A DNA stretch of 53,123 nt from an uncultured SAR116 cluster alpha proteobacterium (GTDB lineage Bacteria; Pseudomonadota; Alphaproteobacteria; Puniceispirillales; Marisalimonadaceae): NCBI GenBank assembly GCA_902517815.1, contig CABYED010000012.1, positions 1 to 53,123 on the forward strand, read 5' to 3'. Shown here in pieces: positions 5,724-12,367 of this stretch. The stretch's first letter is position 1. Each line of letters starts with the position of its first letter. Below the pieces are notes generated by a model. It did no database searches. It was not told the DNA's origin and worked only from the letters and a program-made list of their open reading frames with translations. Made by a program: the position numbers and the translations under genes.

Positions 5724-6488
5724 TTAAGCTGCATTTTCTAGTTGAGCTTGGATTTTAGGTGGCATTTGAGCTATTAACTGATCGGTAATATTTCTTGGAC
5801 TTTCGCCTCTTGAAATATATTTTAGTCCTAATACAACCATTTCTCTGTAAAGTAATTCATGCGCTGAATAACCTTCAAGCTTTGTAACGATAGGCATAAA
5901 AATACAGTTGGCAATCATGGCACCATATAAAGTTGTCAACAAAGCAACTGCCATAGCTGGACCAATAGCTTTTGGATCAGCCATATTGCCTAACATAGCA
6001 ACTAGTCCGATTAAAGTACCAATCATCCCCATTGCAGGTGCTAAATCCACCCAAGCCTGAAATACACCTGTCATATCCTCATGTCTGACTTTCATTGCTT
6101 TAACTTCTTTATTCAATTGGTCTGTTAATTTTGTTTCATCGGCACCATCTACTAGCATTTGAAGACCTTTTTCAAAAAATTTATCTGGAACTTCCTGACC
6201 TTCTAGTGCCATCATTCCGTCTTTTCTGGCAATACCTGCAAGTTCTGTTATTCGTGTAATTAACTCATCATGCTTTTTTGCTCCTGGCATGAAAACTTTG
6301 GCAAGTGTTCCAAATGAAGCTAAAAACATGGGTAAAGTCGACCTGTACATTACGGCAAAGAATGTTCCTCCAATAACAATTAACATTGATGGAGTATCTA
6401 TGAATGCTCCTATGCCACCAGAGGATATCATTGCTCCAGCTATCATTCCAAGGGTGCCTATAAGTCCAATTAAAGATGCTATATCCAT
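5724..6488 (-). CDS. motA: Flagellar stator protein MotA/PomA
   Basis: This is the ion-channel subunit that surrounds MotB and pushes on the rotor protein FliG. The 254 residues have the PomA layout: two N-terminal helices with IDTPSMLIVIGGTF between them, a cytoplasmic domain with charged segments (AGIARKDGMMALE, VKAMKVRHEDMT), then two helices with DLAPAMGMIGTLIGLV and GPAMAVALLTTLYG. These last motifs are the best conserved part of the MotA/TolQ/ExbB family. It is first in a three-gene minus-strand operon with motB and the RRF-like gene. A candidate sigma-54 promoter lies about 50 bases upstream (6537-6553), consistent with flagellar regulation in alphaproteobacteria. Confidence 0.95.
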   Translation of the reverse strand: MDIASLIGLIGTLGMIAGAMISSGGIGAFIDTPSMLIVIGGTFFAVMYRSTLPMFLASFGTLAKVFMPGAKKHDELITRITELAGIARKDGMMALEGQEVPDKFFEKGLQMLVDGADETKLTDQLNKEVKAMKVRHEDMTGVFQAWVDLAPAMGMIGTLIGLVAMLGNMADPKAIGPAMAVALLTTLYGAMIANCIFMPIVTKLEGYSAHELLYREMVVLGLKYISRGESPRNITDQLIAQMPPKIQAQLENAA

Positions 6489-6523
6489 TTTATTGCCTTT
6501 TTTTTATTAAATGATAATGATAA

Positions 6524-6540
6524 TAGGCATAAATTCTGCA
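6524..6540 (+). promoter_or_regulatory. Candidate sigma-54 promoter for the DUF1566 gene
   Basis: TAGGCATAAATTCTGCA has GG (6526-6527) and GC (6538-6539) separated by exactly ten bases, the sigma-54 -24/-12 spacing. The GGCA and TGCA flanks also fit the consensus. The predicted start is near 6551, giving a leader of about 45 bases to the ATG at 6596. It shares its -12 GC with the motA promoter on the other strand. It is weaker than consensus at the T before GG and the T before TGC. Confidence 0.5.
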
Positions 6541-6553
6541 AGAATGAGACCAA
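6537..6553 (-). promoter_or_regulatory. Candidate sigma-54 promoter for motA
   Basis: Read on the minus strand, TTGGTCTCATTCTTGCA matches TTGG...TTGCA with exactly ten bases between GG and GC, as sigma-54 requires. The predicted transcript starts near 6526, about 38 bases before the motA ATG. The rpoN gene lies 1 kb away. No enhancer-binding regulator is encoded in the window, so the activator is unknown. Confidence 0.62.
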
Positions 6554-6595: not shown

Positions 6596-7090
6596 ATGTT
6601 AATTATAAAATCATCATTCTCAAAAATTTATACTACTATTATAATATTATTTTTATTATTTAATTTCAATAATGTTTGGGCTAATAATTTTATATCTAGG
6701 GGATATTATGTTATTGATTTAAGTCAAAAACTTGAATGGATGACTTGCACAGTAGGAATGATATGGGAAAAAGACAAGTGTGTTGGTAATCCAATAAAAG
6801 TGAAATTAAATCAAATAGACTCTGTAATTAGCCAGGCAAATGAACAACTTGAGGGCAGATGGCGCTTACCAAATAGAAAAGAATTGGAACATATAGTTTG
6901 TAAAGACTGTCAAAAAGTCAAAATAAATAAAAAAATATTTCCGAATACACCACCAGAATCATTTTGGACTAGCGAAAAAAACCCATGGCAACCTCAATTC
7001 ATGTGGACAGTAAATTTTTTTACAGGCCATACCTTTGGAAGATTTCCAGGTTTTATTCCAAATTATGTAAGATTAGTTAGAGAAAGGTAA
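6596..7090 (+). CDS. Secreted DUF1566 (Lcl-like C-terminal domain) protein
   Basis: The 164-residue protein has a signal peptide (hydrophobic core about residues 13-25, likely cleavage after VWA). Its exported domain contains RWRLPNRKELEHI, SFWTSE and a terminal YVRLVRER. The W-R-L-P-(N/T)-x-x-E-L signature and the closing VRLVR are typical of DUF1566, a C-type-lectin-like fold found in many exported proteins. Cys residues at CTVGMIWEKDKC and CKDC may form disulfides. TTTGGAGA lies 7-8 bases before the ATG. It is divergent from motA, from an overlapping candidate sigma-54 promoter, so it may be expressed with the motility genes. Its function is unknown. Confidence 0.75.
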   Translation: MLIIKSSFSKIYTTIIILFLLFNFNNVWANNFISRGYYVIDLSQKLEWMTCTVGMIWEKDKCVGNPIKVKLNQIDSVISQANEQLEGRWRLPNRKELEHIVCKDCQKVKINKKIFPNTPPESFWTSEKNPWQPQFMWTVNFFTGHTFGRFPGFIPNYVRLVRER

Positions 7091-7593: not shown

Positions 7594-9078
7594 ATGAAAC
7601 TAGGACAACAGTTAAAAATTAAACAAAATCAGTCTTTAATAATGACACCACAGTTGCAACAAGCAATCAAATTGTTGCAATTAACTAATATTGAATTATC
7701 AGATTTTATTGACAAAGCAAAATTAGAAAACCCATTTTTAAAAGAGAATACTCAAACAATATCCAAAAAAAATGAAGAAGAAAAAAGTTCAAATACTTAT
7801 GAGAATATGAATAGTTCATTAGATCCACTTAAAAATGATAGTAAACTTGATTTAGAAAATACTTTTGATTCACATATATCTTCAAATTCAAAAATGGAAA
7901 ATAAAAAACTTTTTGATAAAGAAGTAATTAAATCAGGATCAAATAAATCTGCAGGAGAAGTAATAGAAAAAACACTTGAGCATAAGGTTTCGCTTAGAGA
8001 CCATCTGATAAATCAAATAAACTTAACTTTAAAGAAAAATCAAACCAAAACTGTTGCAATTGCAATGATAGATTATCTTCATCCAAGTGGTTGGTTTATT
8101 TCATCTACATCTGAAGTTGCGAAAGAATTGAACGTAGACATTTCTATGGTAGAAAAAGTACTTTCAAAATTAAAAAATCTCGAACCAGTAGGAATTTTTT
8201 CCCAAAATTTAGCAGAATGTTTGAAGATTCAATTGGTTGAAAATAGACAATTTAATCAGCATTTTGCAATTCTTCTTGAAAACCTTAACATCTTACCCTC
8301 AGGAAAATTTAGGCAGATTAGTAAACTTTGTAAAGTTTCTGAAGATAAACTATTTCAAATGATTAAAATTTTAAAGACACTTAACCCAAAACCTGCTGAA
8401 AATTTTAATGAAGAAAACGTTAATGTTGAACAACCAGACATCCTCGTTACAAGATCTGCAAAAGGATGGCGTATTGATTTAAATGGTTCAACTTTGCCAA
8501 GTGTAAATGTTGATGAAAGCTATATTGAGGAAATGAATAATTATAATCTTGATGAAAAAGGTAATGCTTTTACTTTAGAAAAGATTGGAGAAGCTCGTTG
8601 GTTAAAAAAAGCCGTTGATCAAAGAAATAAAACAATATTAAAAGTGACATCTGAGATATTAAAAAAACAAGTTGGTTTTTTTAGGCATGGTTTTAGCCAT
8701 ATGAAACCAATGATACTTAAAGATATTTCTGATGAAATTGGAATGCATGAAAGTACGGTTTCAAGAGTCACTAATAGTAAATTAATTTTGACTGAATGGG
8801 GTGTCATGCCATTGAAAAATTTCTTTTCTGCGTCAATTTCAGGTTCAGAAAATTCAGAATTACATGCTGCTTCCGCTGTAAGAGAAACTATTAAAAATCT
8901 AATTTCATCAGAAATTGCAGGAAAACCATTAAGTGACGATAAATTAGCTGGAATTTTGAATAAAGAAGGTATGGATGTAGCTAGAAGGACAGTCGCAAAA
9001 TATAGAGATATGTTAAATATACCATCTAGCTCACAAAGAAGAAAACAAGCCAGATTAATGAAATTTGCATCGAATTAA
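7594..9078 (+). CDS. rpoN: RNA polymerase sigma-54 factor RpoN
   Basis: Sigma-54 directs RNA polymerase to -24/-12 promoters and needs an AAA+ activator. I start at 7594 rather than the in-frame ATG at 7555: GTGGAGATTGAA precedes it, and MKLGQQLKIKQNQSLIMTP is the standard RpoN opening. The product is 494 residues. Region I is Gln/Leu-rich (TPQLQQAIKLLQL), an acidic region II follows, then the core-binding region. The C-terminal domain carries the HTH (DISDEIGMHESTVSRVTNSK) and the RpoN box ARRTVAKYRDML at about residues 463-474. In many proteobacteria lptB precedes and hpf/ptsN follow; here motility and bactofilin genes surround it, and five sigma-54-like promoters lie within about 4 kb. Confidence 0.97.
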   Translation: MKLGQQLKIKQNQSLIMTPQLQQAIKLLQLTNIELSDFIDKAKLENPFLKENTQTISKKNEEEKSSNTYENMNSSLDPLKNDSKLDLENTFDSHISSNSKMENKKLFDKEVIKSGSNKSAGEVIEKTLEHKVSLRDHLINQINLTLKKNQTKTVAIAMIDYLHPSGWFISSTSEVAKELNVDISMVEKVLSKLKNLEPVGIFSQNLAECLKIQLVENRQFNQHFAILLENLNILPSGKFRQISKLCKVSEDKLFQMIKILKTLNPKPAENFNEENVNVEQPDILVTRSAKGWRIDLNGSTLPSVNVDESYIEEMNNYNLDEKGNAFTLEKIGEARWLKKAVDQRNKTILKVTSEILKKQVGFFRHGFSHMKPMILKDISDEIGMHESTVSRVTNSKLILTEWGVMPLKNFFSASISGSENSELHAASAVRETIKNLISSEIAGKPLSDDKLAGILNKEGMDVARRTVAKYRDMLNIPSSSQRRKQARLMKFASN

Positions 9079-9102
9079 GATATAAGTTTAAGCAAAAAAA
9101 AA

Positions 9103-9282
9103 TTAAATTGATGTTTGAGTATTTATAATTTTAGAGTCAAAAATATATTTTAATGGAATTCTATTCTTTTGTTTTTTTATACCATTTTGATCAAAGTAAT
9201 CAATTTGTATAACAAATTCGTTTAAATTATTTAATAACTGTTTTTTATTATTTGTGTGTTTGTTTATCTCTTCTAATGACAT
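9103..9282 (-). CDS. Short unrecognised protein of 59 residues, predicted sigma-54-dependent
   Basis: An open frame on the minus strand starts at ATG 9282 and encodes MSLEEINKHTNNKKQ and so on, ending NTQTSI. It is preceded by AGAAGGAG, a near-perfect Shine-Dalgarno, seven bases before the ATG. The product is hydrophilic, with no membrane segment or signal, a helical-looking first half and a basic middle (NGIKKQKNRIPLK). It fills most of the gap between rpoN (convergent) and the M23 peptidase gene. A consensus-like sigma-54 promoter lies 31 bases upstream of the start codon. I recognise no family. The ribosome-binding site plus promoter make a real gene likely. Confidence 0.68.
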   Translation of the reverse strand: MSLEEINKHTNNKKQLLNNLNEFVIQIDYFDQNGIKKQKNRIPLKYIFDSKIINTQTSI

Positions 9283-9312
9283 TTCAAAACTCCTTCTGTT
9301 TACTTAAAGTGA

Positions 9313-9329
9313 TGCATTTGTTATGCCAA
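9313..9329 (-). promoter_or_regulatory. Candidate sigma-54 promoter for the 59-residue gene
   Basis: On the minus strand TTGGCATAACAAATGCA has TTGGCA, GG and GC ten bases apart, and TGCA, close to the consensus TTGGCACG-N4-TTGCA. The predicted start is near 9302, leaving about 20 bases before the ATG at 9282, with the Shine-Dalgarno inside that leader. It sits between the 59-codon gene and the M23 gene on the same strand. Confidence 0.62.
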
Positions 9330-9336
9330 AGACAAA

Positions 9337-10719
9337 TTAGTTTGGGTTTTTATTTGCAAAATTTTTTAAACTTGTTCTGCTTAATAGGTTTCTCCCAATT
9401 TTGATATAAGTGGCTGGATTTTGAGATTTTCCATTTACAGAGATTTCGTAATGAAGATGTGCACCTTTAACCTTGCCTGTTCTACCCATCTTACCTATAA
9501 CTTGACCTTCATTAACTAAGTCTCCTCGTCTTACTTTGATTTTTGCTAAATGGCCATATGTAGTCATAATTCCATAATTATGTTTAATTCTAATAACTTT
9601 CCCAAAAGAACCATGATAACCTGCAAAAACAACAGTGCCATCAGCTGATACAGATACATTTTCTTGCCATGTGCCAGCTAAATCTATGCCATGATGCATT
9701 CTATATTTTCCTGTTACAGGATGCTTTCTAGGGCCATAGGGGCTAGAAACGTAATAATGTTCCATTGGTGGTTTTAATGGAATATTTTGAAGTGCATCTT
9801 TATAAATCGAAAGCAAATTTATTCTGTCTTTTAAAATTGTGAAAAAATCATCACTATCTGGATCGATCACTTTATTTTTATTAGTAATTGACTTTAAATT
9901 TACTAAATCCTTGTTATTTAATCTAACATTTATCAAATCAAAAACATTTTCCATTTGAGTTAGTTCGTTATCAACAGAAGCGATAAAGCGAAGTGTTTTG
10001 ACTTTTTCATTTATTTGTGGAGGTTTAGGAACAAAATTATCGTTAATTTCATTATATGTAGAATTATCAGAAATGAAAATATTACTCTCATTAACTTTTG
10101 GAATTGTAAACTCGCCAGGTAAATCCTGATTTCTCATAGTTTGATTAAATAAATCTATACTCAAATTATTATGATTGGCTGTTTTTTTAATATTATTTTC
10201 ATTTTTATCAAAAAAGAAACTTTCCTCCAAAATTTTTCTTGTATCATCAACTAGAATATTTTTGTTATTGTCTACATCTTTATCAATTAAAGGCTCATAA
10301 GAAATTGTTTCATTTTTTTCAGATAGAGAGTTATTTTTAAGAATCGGTAATGATATATTTGATTGATCTTTTGTATTAAGGTTGACAAGAGTGTCTGAGT
10401 CATTTTCTATTGGACTACTAATATTTGCTGAAGCTTCAGTGATTATATCATTCTTTTTGGCAACATCTATTGCTGAGTAAATTCCTTTTGCAGACCAGTA
10501 AACTATACTTGTTAACCCTATTACTGTTGTCATTATTACACTAGTATAATGAATTGGTTTAAAAGCTATTTCAATAGGACCTCTTTTAGTAAATATTAAA
10601 AAACGTCTTTCTGAAAAAAGGCCGACTTTTTTATTTTTTTTAATTTCCTCTCCAAAACGTTGTCCAGTTTTCACTGGAGGAAGTTTTTTCCCAAATTTAT
10701 TTAATGTGGTATTAACCAC
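9337..10719 (-). CDS. Membrane-anchored M23 (LytM) peptidoglycan endopeptidase
   Basis: This is predicted to cut peptidoglycan cross-links in the periplasm. The 460 residues begin with a basic cytoplasmic part and one transmembrane helix (about residues 60-80), then a long Asn/Asp/Ser-rich linker. The C-terminal M23 domain has SSPYGPRKHPVTGK, HHGIDLAG, YGHLAKI and GAHLHYEISV, the zinc-binding HxxxD and HxH signature. The start is GTG at 10719: GGAG lies six bases upstream, and the preceding gene's stop is three bases away. Pairing with bactofilins is known elsewhere (H. pylori Csd1 with CcmA), where the endopeptidase shapes the cell wall. A role in cell shape or pole architecture is inference. 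Confidence 0.88.
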   Translation of the reverse strand: MVNTTLNKFGKKLPPVKTGQRFGEEIKKNKKVGLFSERRFLIFTKRGPIEIAFKPIHYTSVIMTTVIGLTSIVYWSAKGIYSAIDVAKKNDIITEASANISSPIENDSDTLVNLNTKDQSNISLPILKNNSLSEKNETISYEPLIDKDVDNNKNILVDDTRKILEESFFFDKNENNIKKTANHNNLSIDLFNQTMRNQDLPGEFTIPKVNESNIFISDNSTYNEINDNFVPKPPQINEKVKTLRFIASVDNELTQMENVFDLINVRLNNKDLVNLKSITNKNKVIDPDSDDFFTILKDRINLLSIYKDALQNIPLKPPMEHYYVSSPYGPRKHPVTGKYRMHHGIDLAGTWQENVSVSADGTVVFAGYHGSFGKVIRIKHNYGIMTTYGHLAKIKVRRGDLVNEGQVIGKMGRTGKVKGAHLHYEISVNGKSQNPATYIKIGRNLLSRTSLKNFANKNPN

Positions 10720-10722
10720 TTA

Positions 10723-11097
10723 CTACTCCATACCAAGATATAAAAAATATAAAATTCCAATATTAGATAAAATTTGTAAAGTTACTAATAGAATTAAAAC
10801 TTTACTAGAAACTGGATTCTTTACTGACAAACTCAGCGCAGGAAAAGATTCGTTTTTTGTAAAATTATTACTATCTTTTTTTTCAAAATTATCTAAGTCT
10901 TGAAATTCTTTTTTTACCTCAAAATTTTGATTCGGGAAACTATTTTTATTTTCCATTGATAGAGATATGTCTGAATTACTAGTTTTTTGATGCACTTCCA
11001 TAGGAGTATCAACCGAAATTTGTTCTGTAGCCTCATTTTCAATCTCTATACGCATTTTTTCAATACGATCTCTTAAATCAATTATTTCATCTGCCAT
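10723..11097 (-). CDS. Small membrane protein with N-terminal helix, partner of the M23 peptidase
   Basis: The frame is open from 11127, but I prefer the ATG at 11097 (MADEIIDLRDRIEKMR), with GGA four bases upstream. The product is then 124 residues. It has a charged, coiled-coil-prone N-terminus (about residues 1-25), an Asn/Ser-rich middle, and one C-terminal membrane helix (VLILLVTLQILSNIGILYFL). The few residues after that helix suggest a tail-anchored or C-terminally inserted protein with its bulk in the cytoplasm, where it could meet the bactofilins encoded divergently. It is first in a two-gene operon with the peptidase. I recognise no family; the linking role is inference. Confidence 0.65.
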   Translation of the reverse strand: MADEIIDLRDRIEKMRIEIENEATEQISVDTPMEVHQKTSNSDISLSMENKNSFPNQNFEVKKEFQDLDNFEKKDSNNFTKNESFPALSLSVKNPVSSKVLILLVTLQILSNIGILYFLYLGME

Positions 11098-11136
11098 AAT
11101 ATCCAACTTTAAATTTTTGATTTCCAATAATTATTA

Positions 11137-11152
11137 TGGCAAGTTAATTGCA
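11137..11152 (+). promoter_or_regulatory. Near-consensus sigma-54 promoter for the bactofilin operon
   Basis: TGGCAAGTTAATTGCA differs from the sigma-54 consensus TGGCACGNNNNTTGCA at one defined position. GG (11138-11139) and GC (11150-11151) are ten bases apart. The predicted start is near 11162, about 115 bases before the first bactofilin ATG. Its -12 GC is also the -12 of a minus-strand candidate. Confidence 0.68.
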
Positions 11153-11165
11153 TCATTCATACCAA
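11149..11165 (-). promoter_or_regulatory. Candidate sigma-54 promoter for the membrane protein/M23 operon
   Basis: On the minus strand TTGGTATGAATGATGCA has GG and GC ten bases apart, with TTGG and TGCA flanks. The predicted start is near 11138, about 40 bases upstream of the ATG at 11097. It lies on top of the bactofilin promoter, so the two cannot be occupied at once. Confidence 0.52.
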
Positions 11166-11276
11166 ATAAATGAATTTTGATTAATTTTTTAAATTTAAAT
11201 TTACGGTAGTAACATAGAGGTAGTTGTAGTAAGTTGATTTTGATTAATTTTAATTATTAGAAAAAGGATTTCCAAG

Positions 11277-11615
11277 ATGTTAGGAAAAACAAACGATACT
11301 GAAAATGCAAAATCTATAATTTCAAGTGACATGAAGATAAAAGGCAAAATTTCAGCAGATGGAGATTTAGTATTATTAGGGTCAGTTGTTGGAGATATTA
11401 AGTGTAATAGTTTGTCAGTAGAAGATACAGGTACTCTAAAAGGTAATATTGATGCAGACGTTGTAACAGTATCTGGTAAATGTGATGGCCAAGTTTCAGG
11501 TGATATAGTTTCAATTAAATCCACCGGTAAAATTAGTGGAGAAGTTTTTTATGAAAATATTTCAATAGAAGAAGGAGCTGTTGTAGAGGCTCAAGTAGGA
11601 AAAAGAAAAAAATAA
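11277..11615 (+). CDS. Bactofilin 1
   Basis: Bactofilins (DUF583) form nucleotide-independent filaments through a right-handed beta-helix and act in cell shape, stalk or polar organisation. The 112 residues show the repeating pattern of short beta rungs (IKGKISADGDLVLLGSVVG, TGTLKGNIDADVVTVSGK, STGKISGEVFYENISIEEG) with Gly at turns. Short unstructured ends flank the helix, including a basic KRKK tail. AAAAAGGA lies upstream of the ATG. It is first of three tandem bactofilin genes, 23 bases before the second, and divergent from the M23 operon. Confidence 0.9.
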   Translation: MLGKTNDTENAKSIISSDMKIKGKISADGDLVLLGSVVGDIKCNSLSVEDTGTLKGNIDADVVTVSGKCDGQVSGDIVSIKSTGKISGEVFYENISIEEGAVVEAQVGKRKK

Positions 11616-11638: not shown

Positions 11639-12028
11639 ATGGCAAATAAACAGGCAGTTTTGGGATCTGGGGCTAGATTTACTGGTAAAATATCTAATGC
11701 CAAATCTATTGAAATTAATGGATATGTTGAAGCTGATTTAACAACTGAAAAAGTTACTATTGGTTCAAGTGGAAAATTTCTTGGAAAAGTTGATTCAGAA
11801 TTAGTGGTTATTGCAGGAGAGTATGAAGGAAAAATGAAAGCTGATAGTGTTTGGTTAACTGAAACTTCTAGAATTAGTGGAGAGGTTCACTATAAGTCAT
11901 TACAAATGGATAGAGGTGCAGCTTTAAATTGCAGAGTAGTACATAATTGGACTAAGGCCGATGAAAAAAAAGCAGAAGAAACAAGTGAAACTGAAGAAGT
12001 TCAAGAAGATAACACAGAAGAAAAATAA
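11639..12028 (+). CDS. Bactofilin 2 with acidic C-terminal tail
   Basis: The ATG at 11639 is chosen because AAAGGAG precedes it; the TTG three bases upstream is less likely. The 129 residues carry the bactofilin beta-helix (about residues 6-100; rungs such as AKSIEINGYVEADLTTEKV and SRISGEVHYKSLQMDRGA). Unlike its neighbours it ends in a long acidic tail (KADEKKAEETSETEEVQEDN). Such tails could mediate partner binding, but that is inference. It lies 24 bases before bactofilin 3 and almost certainly shares its transcript. Confidence 0.9.
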   Translation: MANKQAVLGSGARFTGKISNAKSIEINGYVEADLTTEKVTIGSSGKFLGKVDSELVVIAGEYEGKMKADSVWLTETSRISGEVHYKSLQMDRGAALNCRVVHNWTKADEKKAEETSETEEVQEDNTEEK

Positions 12029-12052: not shown

Positions 12053-12367
12053 ATGAGTGAAATTACATATATATCAGAAGAATTGGTTATGGAAGGCAAT
12101 TTAGACTCTGCTGGTTCATCGGTTGTTGTTGCTGGAAGATTTAAAGGTGAGTTAAGAGCTAAAGATGTACTTCTTGAAGCTAATAGTATTTTTGACGGAA
12201 ATCTGATTGCTGATAAAGTTACATTAGGCGGATTAGTAAAAGGTGAAGTTGCTGCTAACACTCTTAATGTTGCTAGTAGCGCAAAAGTTGAAGGTAATTT
12301 GAAAACAAATGCTTTATCTATTGATTTAGGTGCAGAAGTTTCAGGTAGTATAACCAGAATTTCATAA
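12053..12367 (+). CDS. Bactofilin 3
   Basis: This is the third tandem member, 104 residues, nearly all beta-helix: EELVMEGNLDSAGSSVVVAG, KGELRAKDVLLEANSIFDG, ADKVTLGGLVKGEVAANTL and SAKVEGNLKTNALSIDLGA. It lacks the tails seen in the other two, so it may be a core filament component. AAGGATTTATT precedes the ATG. Its stop codon abuts the stop of a convergent small gene at 12368. Three different bactofilins in one operon suggests a hetero-filament or functional division. Confidence 0.9.
   Translation: MSEITYISEELVMEGNLDSAGSSVVVAGRFKGELRAKDVLLEANSIFDGNLIADKVTLGGLVKGEVAANTLNVASSAKVEGNLKTNALSIDLGAEVSGSITRIS

Follow-up and report, generated by a model that had tools for sequence, protein, structure and literature searches.

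In the window analysed here, a stretch of 53,123 nucleotides from an uncultured alphaproteobacterium of the SAR116 cluster, a mirrored pair of sigma-54 sites lies at 11137-11164 between a rightward operon of three bactofilin genes and a leftward operon composed of orf10723 and a gene for an M23 peptidase, and re-inspection of the window sequence confirmed that this pair is real. Judged from its sequence, the block is probably a bidirectional sigma-54 promoter, which would divide the polymerase between scaffold and hydrolase genes. A second mirrored pair is located within 5 kb, at 6525-6552, between motAB and the divergent gene for an Lcl_C-domain protein (lcl), as the initial annotation had noticed. 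The gene rpoN sits between the two pairs (Table 1), and the C-terminal stretch ARRTVAKYR of its product is presumably the RpoN box. A small ORF of about 59 codons (approximately 9103-9282, minus strand, recognized by eye) lies downstream of the single site at 9313-9329, between rpoN and the M23 gene.

Table 1. Predicted promoters and genes around the two mirrored pairs in the window
Feature	Position	Strand	Remarks
motA, gene 1 of the motAB operon	5724..6488	-	PF01618
Sigma-54 promoter (predicted) AGGCATAAATTCTGCA, toward the Lcl_C gene	6525..6540	+	counterparts stand apart in some relatives
Sigma-54 promoter (predicted) TGGTCTCATTCTTGCA, toward motAB	6537..6552	-	TGCA 6537-6540 common with the lcl-facing site
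Lcl_C-domain protein (lcl), divergent from motA	6596..7090	+	PF07603
rpoN (sigma-54)	7594..9078	+	AID, core-binding and DNA-binding domains all found
Single sigma-54 site TTGGCATAACAAATGCA, internal control	9313..9329	-	-24/-12 core bases almost unchanged in 25 rows, spacer varies
M23 peptidase, gene 2 of the minus operon	9337..10719	-	PF01551, E 1.5e-29
orf10723, gene 1 of the minus operon	10723..11097	-	124 aa, without Pfam match
Conserved block with both promoters	11133..11168		0.31 substitutions per site, against 3.9 in the left and 2.9 in the right leader
Sigma-54 promoter (predicted) TGGCAAGTTAATTGCA, toward bac1-bac2-bac3	11137..11152	+	-24 TGGCA, -12 TTGCA
Palindromic TGCA, -12 of both promoters	11149..11152	both	invariant in 33 of 33 genus rows
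Sigma-54 promoter (predicted) TGGTATGAATGATGCA, toward orf10723-M23	11149..11164	-	-24 TTGGTA, -12 TGCA
Bactofilin 1 (bac1)	11277..11615	+	PF04519
Bactofilin 2 (bac2)	11639..12028	+	PF04519
Bactofilin 3 (bac3)	12053..12367	+	PF04519

Sigma-54 promoters are made up of a GG and a GC element with ten bases between them, following a TTGGCA/TTGCA-like consensus. At 11137-11164 both strands read GG-N9-TGCA and the core has the symmetry TGG-N9-TGCA-N9-CCA, so that the overlap of the two sites on one -12 element, as described at the outset, is borne out on both strands. The (+) site, which had been called nearly perfect, has no mismatch to TGGCA-N6-TTGCA and is the only such site in the window, while the (-) site has two mismatches; compared with the sigma-54 consensus, which we take to be TGGCACGNNNNTTGCA, the latter is off at positions 4, 6 and 12. 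According to the -24/-12 convention, the starts would presumably lie near 11163 for the (+) and near 11138 for the (-) promoter. These predicted starts are about 25 bp apart, with the transcripts diverging, and each falls on the -24 element of the opposite promoter, in agreement with the original description. Because the TGCA is required in either orientation, only one orientation of the polymerase would fit on one DNA molecule at a time, and mutual exclusion between the two would follow from this geometry.

The zero-mismatch word TGGCA-N6-TTGCA, present once in the window, has a mean of 0.13 in shuffled sequences, and 12 of 100 shuffles contain at least one. At up to two mismatches the same word occurs 58 times against a mean of 50, which is chance level, with 14 of 100 shuffles reaching 58. 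The mirrored word GG-N9-TGCA-N9-CC is found twice in the window (6526-6551 and from 11138), for a shuffle mean of 0.12, and no shuffle out of 100 reaches two. The whole assembly (2.04 Mb, 89% complete) has 25 such words, of which 22 fall within ORFs with a minimum length of 100 aa, another reaches into the start of a 102-aa ORF (L007), and the two intergenic ones are the two mirrored pairs. Since ORFs of 120 aa or more leave about 12% of the window uncovered, two to three intergenic words out of 25 are expected, and the word alone is no genome-wide proof. Furthermore, the strict pattern TTGGC-N7to9-TGCA-N7to9-GCCAA was searched class-wide in 385 genomes and matched in 86. Among the matches listed, sigma-54 spacing was seen at 11 of 75 places on the (+) strand, for 8.3 expected if the nine spacings were equal; ten of these 11 places are inside ORFs, the eleventh falls where an LPP20 ORF is extended at its 5' end, and two are the same word in two genomes. 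Class-wide enrichment of the strict mirrored pattern was rejected, given this near-chance share among the matches listed and the location in ORFs. The decisive evidence for the mirrored sites is their conservation, not the counts of words.

The nearest named relatives are members of the SAR116 genus AAA536-G10, including SCGC AAA536-G10 and AAA536-K22. The set for this genus has 41 rows (40 loci and the window), eight of which end before the bactofilin region and have no match to bac1 or orf10723. Conservation of the -24 and -12 elements in sister genomes had been named beforehand as one point on which the proposal could fail. Both arms and the core of the bactofilin/M23 pair are present and invariant in all 33 rows that span the region, and those of the motA/lcl pair in all rows (41 of 41). 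In an overlapping set of genomes, the bactofilin/M23 block was found in 27 of 28 M23 loci of the same genus, the DNA of the 28th (L062) ending at the gene, and all 30 aligned motA loci have the motA block; a locus of another genus (L077) is without the mirrored bactofilin/M23 block. Substitutions were counted by parsimony over 25 clade-A rows placed on a tree. None falls in the 16 positions of the promoter elements, and the rates of the block and of its two leaders (Table 1) compare with 3.2 changes per site at the examined third codon positions of bac1. Between clade A and clade B the spacers differ (CAAGTTAAT versus, for example, CTTGTTAAT, and TCATTCATA versus, for example, CTATTTATA), whereas TGGC, TTGCA and ATACCAA are kept across both, as two promoters predict. 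This suggests that the required part consists of two -24 elements and one -12. In the motA/lcl block, conservation runs about 12 bp past the left -24 (6514-6525 in the window) and soon stops past the right one. In addition, the M23 gene is broken in L076 and L232 (SCGC AAA536-K22), with one TGA and one TAG in the matched frame; in L232 the match is split in two. The break could be due to a sequencing error or a decaying copy.

Two features of the block invite a different reading, namely that one arm alone is a promoter, while its conserved counterpart binds something else or belongs to that promoter as an upstream element. The minus-facing site is non-consensus in both mirrored pairs (TGGT at -24), and the spacers of the bactofilin block are near-fixed in clade A (0.5-0.57 changes per site), steadier than the spacer of the 9313-9329 site, which suggests an extra constraint. 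However, it is the spacers that vary between the clades while the arms are constant, TTGGT is the usual motA-facing -24 in other lineages, and a free-standing counterpart of each arm faces the same gene in another lineage, so we regard this single-promoter reading as quite improbable. The cluster motB-motA / lcl / rpoN / M23-orf10723 / bac1-3 occurs, whole or in part, across families of the order and beyond, and in relatives TTGGTAY..TTGCW faces motA from a comparable position. Some other SAR116 genomes have the motA-facing TTGGTAYCRTTTTTGCT apart from lcl-facing sites such as TTGGCGCAAGATATGCT or TTGGCGTAAGATGTGCT, and the bactofilin gap of these genomes holds the M23-facing site alone (TGGCAYG..TTTGCT). 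In several other lineages, the motA- and lcl-facing sites are about 40-90 bp apart. In the HIMB59-like clade (including L267), the M23- and bactofilin-facing sites are separated by 85-89 bp in five of the 10 loci read, and the remaining five have the M23-facing site only; a separate bactofilin-facing site, for example TTGGCAAAATTATTGCA, is found in a lineage other than that of the window. The motA/lcl sites of the HIMB59-like clade are fused in 12 of 16 loci, and the other four keep the motA arm without a mirrored lcl arm, showing that the arms occur singly. A fused motA/lcl block is also present in one Rhodobacteraceae genome (L289). No credible, correctly spaced sigma-54 site was found in the bactofilin gap of L109-L111 (g3), L113, L116, L117 and L279. 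Thus, with sites standing alone or missing elsewhere, each of the two sites looks like an independent promoter. The bactofilin/M23 gap of L109-L111 (family f3) has a recurrent inverted repeat, AACGGCA..TCGTT.

On a FastTree tree the fused state requires at least four changes, or three without the long branches L289 and L259, and no count of origins follows from these figures, as the tree carried composition warnings, joined AT-rich lineages and made gain and loss indistinguishable. A perfect mirrored word, TTGGCATGGAAGATGCATAGATGATGCCAA, was also observed between an flhA-like gene and the gene for an LPP20-domain protein in L325 (1843-1872), L336 and L337 (SAR116 genomes G048 and G057, of another genus), and a GG..TGCA..CC word is present at the same gap in G053 (L340). 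This site is missing from the closer relative G055, and we treat it as possibly incidental. In AAA536-G10 itself, flhA and the LPP20 gene each have a sigma-54 site of their own, the two standing back to back at a distance of about 81-85 bp, in all six matching genomes (eight searched; L348-L353).

That the block is a palindromic operator of another DNA-binding protein, and merely resembles sigma-54 sites, would agree with its pseudo-symmetry and its almost complete conservation in clade A. Nevertheless, the symmetric positions are those of the sigma-54 consensus (TGG, A, G, TGCA), the remaining bases differ between the bactofilin and the motA block, the arms are single in relatives, and single sites precede flagellar genes, all of which make such an operator hardly credible.

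More weight has to be given to an additional sigma-70 promoter near the block for one or both operons, which would make the sharing at the sigma-54 block minor. In 11090-11290 there are four sigma-70-like matches, where shuffled sequences average 1.8 (sd 1.3); one at (+) 11108-11137 (TTTAAA/TATTAT) faces the bactofilins, one at (-) 11142-11113 (TTGCCA/AAAAAT) faces orf10723, and TAGTA-like words recur in the bactofilin leader. However, where these two matches extend beyond the block they lie in the left leader, which changes quickly (3.9 changes per site), and clade B has other letters in place of TATTAT. In the bactofilin leader, the ribosome-binding region is the only further conserved island. 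We regard a sigma-70 promoter of this kind as rather unlikely. Moreover, no symmetric -10 element common to the sigma-70-like matches was found in 11090-11290, so that the published type of sigma-70 bidirectional promoter is not seen there.

The company of the sites points to flagellar genes. The assembly of the window has 44 matches to TGGC-N8-TGCA, of which 36 were read in genomic context and nine of these are intergenic. Five of the nine precede flgB, flgG, fliK, the LPP20 gene that diverges from flhA, and a TPR gene located behind a flagellin-like ORF; two are in the bactofilin locus (9313 and 11137), and for two (L154 and L168) a link to flagella is not clear. The names flgB (rod domain), flgG, fliK, LPP20 and TPR have Pfam support, while flhA, flagellin, fliE and fliF were named by eye. 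Since the other intergenic sigma-54 sites precede flagellar genes, the bactofilin and M23 operons probably belong to one sigma-54 flagellar regulon and come on together. As for the activators, the own genome has two strong matches to PF00158, in frames of 466 and 483 aa, which we take to be NtrX/NtrC-like; weak matches are uninformative, as all 14 control genomes score, archaea included. A head-to-head pair of genes for enhancer-binding proteins is listed in 12 of 18 genus relatives; in the assembly that contains the window (89% complete) no such pair was found. A sigma-54 site, TTGGCAAGCTTCTTGCT, adjoins these head-to-head genes in four of the genus relatives, and in L192 (pair at 8642-11173) it is upstream of the activator gene that has fliE- and fliF-like ORFs behind it. 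Domain scans of two genomes (L192 and L194) gave the Pfam domain HTH_8 for one activator and no Pfam HTH domain for its partner. The pair, known here from genes and domains, resembles FleQ/FleT of the Rhodobacter sphaeroides Fla1 system as described in excerpts of PMC7277832, and a similar division of labour is possible in the genus relatives. No conserved or common activator site was found in the alignments by eye.

The initial annotation went further and proposed a switch between making filaments and making the wall hydrolase, with the two promoters being mutually exclusive. Exclusion is upheld by the geometry, and the head-to-head activators of the relatives, one of which is without HTH_8 in the two genomes scanned, make direction-specific activation conceivable. 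But for a toggle, in which one activator or repressor chooses between filaments and hydrolase, a direction-specific control would be expected, and neither a regulator gene in either operon nor, by eye, any direction-specific site was found. In addition, in half of the HIMB59-like loci read (5 of 10) each of these operons is served by a separate sigma-54 site, and motAB/lcl is built alike although nothing obvious would call for alternation there. Alternation is thus unsupported and a toggle very improbable; co-expression with competition, within one flagellar regulon, would fit the sequence evidence better. Nor is the design peculiar to bactofilin loci, as had been supposed, for motAB/lcl shares it, and in more lineages.

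In the mechanism that we propose for the bidirectional promoter, sigma-54 polymerase would bind in either mirror orientation on the palindromic TGCA as -12, with its own GG as -24 on each side, and one bound polymerase would block the other orientation. The sigma-54 closed complex is stable and remains silent until it is activated. The parked polymerase would accordingly stay silent until flagellar enhancer-binding activators open it, and transcripts would then diverge, to the right into the three bactofilin genes and to the left into orf10723-M23. Both operons would be induced together while competing for each single event, and the strength of one -24 element relative to the other might set the ratio of scaffold to hydrolase. 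In Hyphomonas, according to excerpts of the report, expression of the M23 peptidase that partners a bactofilin seemingly had to be precise (PMC10945521); this precedent proves nothing for the present locus, where control of the ratio by the shared block is plausible.

A more general idea, which we offer tentatively and would trust slightly less than doubt, is that enhancer-dependent bidirectional promoters exist, in which a palindromic TGCA -12 serves two operons. Placed between divergent operons that function together (bactofilin/M23 and motAB/lcl), such fused promoters would divide polymerase at a fixed ratio and would have been retained by selection in this role. Their origin may lie in back-to-back promoters that were once separate, with fusion perhaps occurring repeatedly (SAR116 AAA536-G10, the HIMB59-like clade and one Rhodobacteraceae genome). 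Because the closed complex is stable and silent until activation, their partition, unlike that of sigma-70 bidirectional promoters, would be set by binding before activation. If true, bidirectional promoters would extend beyond cores of the sigma-70 type, and one enhancer-dependent site could couple two operons with the occupancy settled before activation. Such a site would also offer a clean in vitro system for the partition of a silent, stable closed complex between orientations. Furthermore, bactofilins and their M23 partner would be tied to a flagellar sigma-54 regulon in marine Alphaproteobacteria, which hints at the role of this cytoskeletal module.

Among known systems, the nearest kind appears to be the sigma-70 bidirectional promoters, whose founding paper is reportedly that of Warman, Grainger and co-workers in 2021. 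As far as excerpts of PMC12825309 and PMC10268837 describe them, these have a pseudo-symmetric core that is read by polymerase both ways, binding is exclusive, and competition occurs once transcription is activated, all of which would have its counterpart in the block proposed here. According to the definition given in the excerpts of PMC10268837, the divergent starts of a bidirectional promoter are 7-25 bp apart on opposite strands, and the separation of about 25 bp predicted here is at the upper edge of this range. The difference is that the sigma-70 promoters have a near-symmetric -10 element and starts most often 18 bp apart (PMC12825309, PMC10268837, excerpts), whereas in the present block the symmetric element is the predicted sigma-54 -12 TGCA and initiation would need an ATP-driven activator; no mention of sigma54 or RpoN was found in either paper. 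Competition of polymerases for one site is also described, in excerpts of PMC3844500, for the overlapping sigma-54/sigma-70 promoters of glmY, but there two sigma factors serve the same gene. Another comparison is with orp1 and orp2 of Desulfovibrio, two sigma-54-driven operons in opposite directions that are activated together; in the excerpts of PMC3897727, however, IHF sites lie between two separate promoters, while the present block uses the same four base pairs as -12. Two divergent T3SS operons likewise have separate sigma-54 promoters in opposite directions (PMC4641369, excerpts), and an NtrA-dependent divergent pair is indicated for hydrogenase 3 of E. coli by a title cited in PMC3844500. 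Opposite-direction sigma-54 promoters with a common -12 were not found in the open-access literature searched, including PMC4591121 and PMC3162934, which is not proof of their absence. With regard to the genes, a comparison is offered by the BacA-LmdC module, where bactofilin genes likewise adjoin a gene for an M23 peptidase. According to excerpts of PMC10945521, that module is a putative bicistronic operon read in one direction, whereas the present locus has divergent operons with a predicted shared promoter, three bactofilins and a flagellar sigma-54 neighbourhood.
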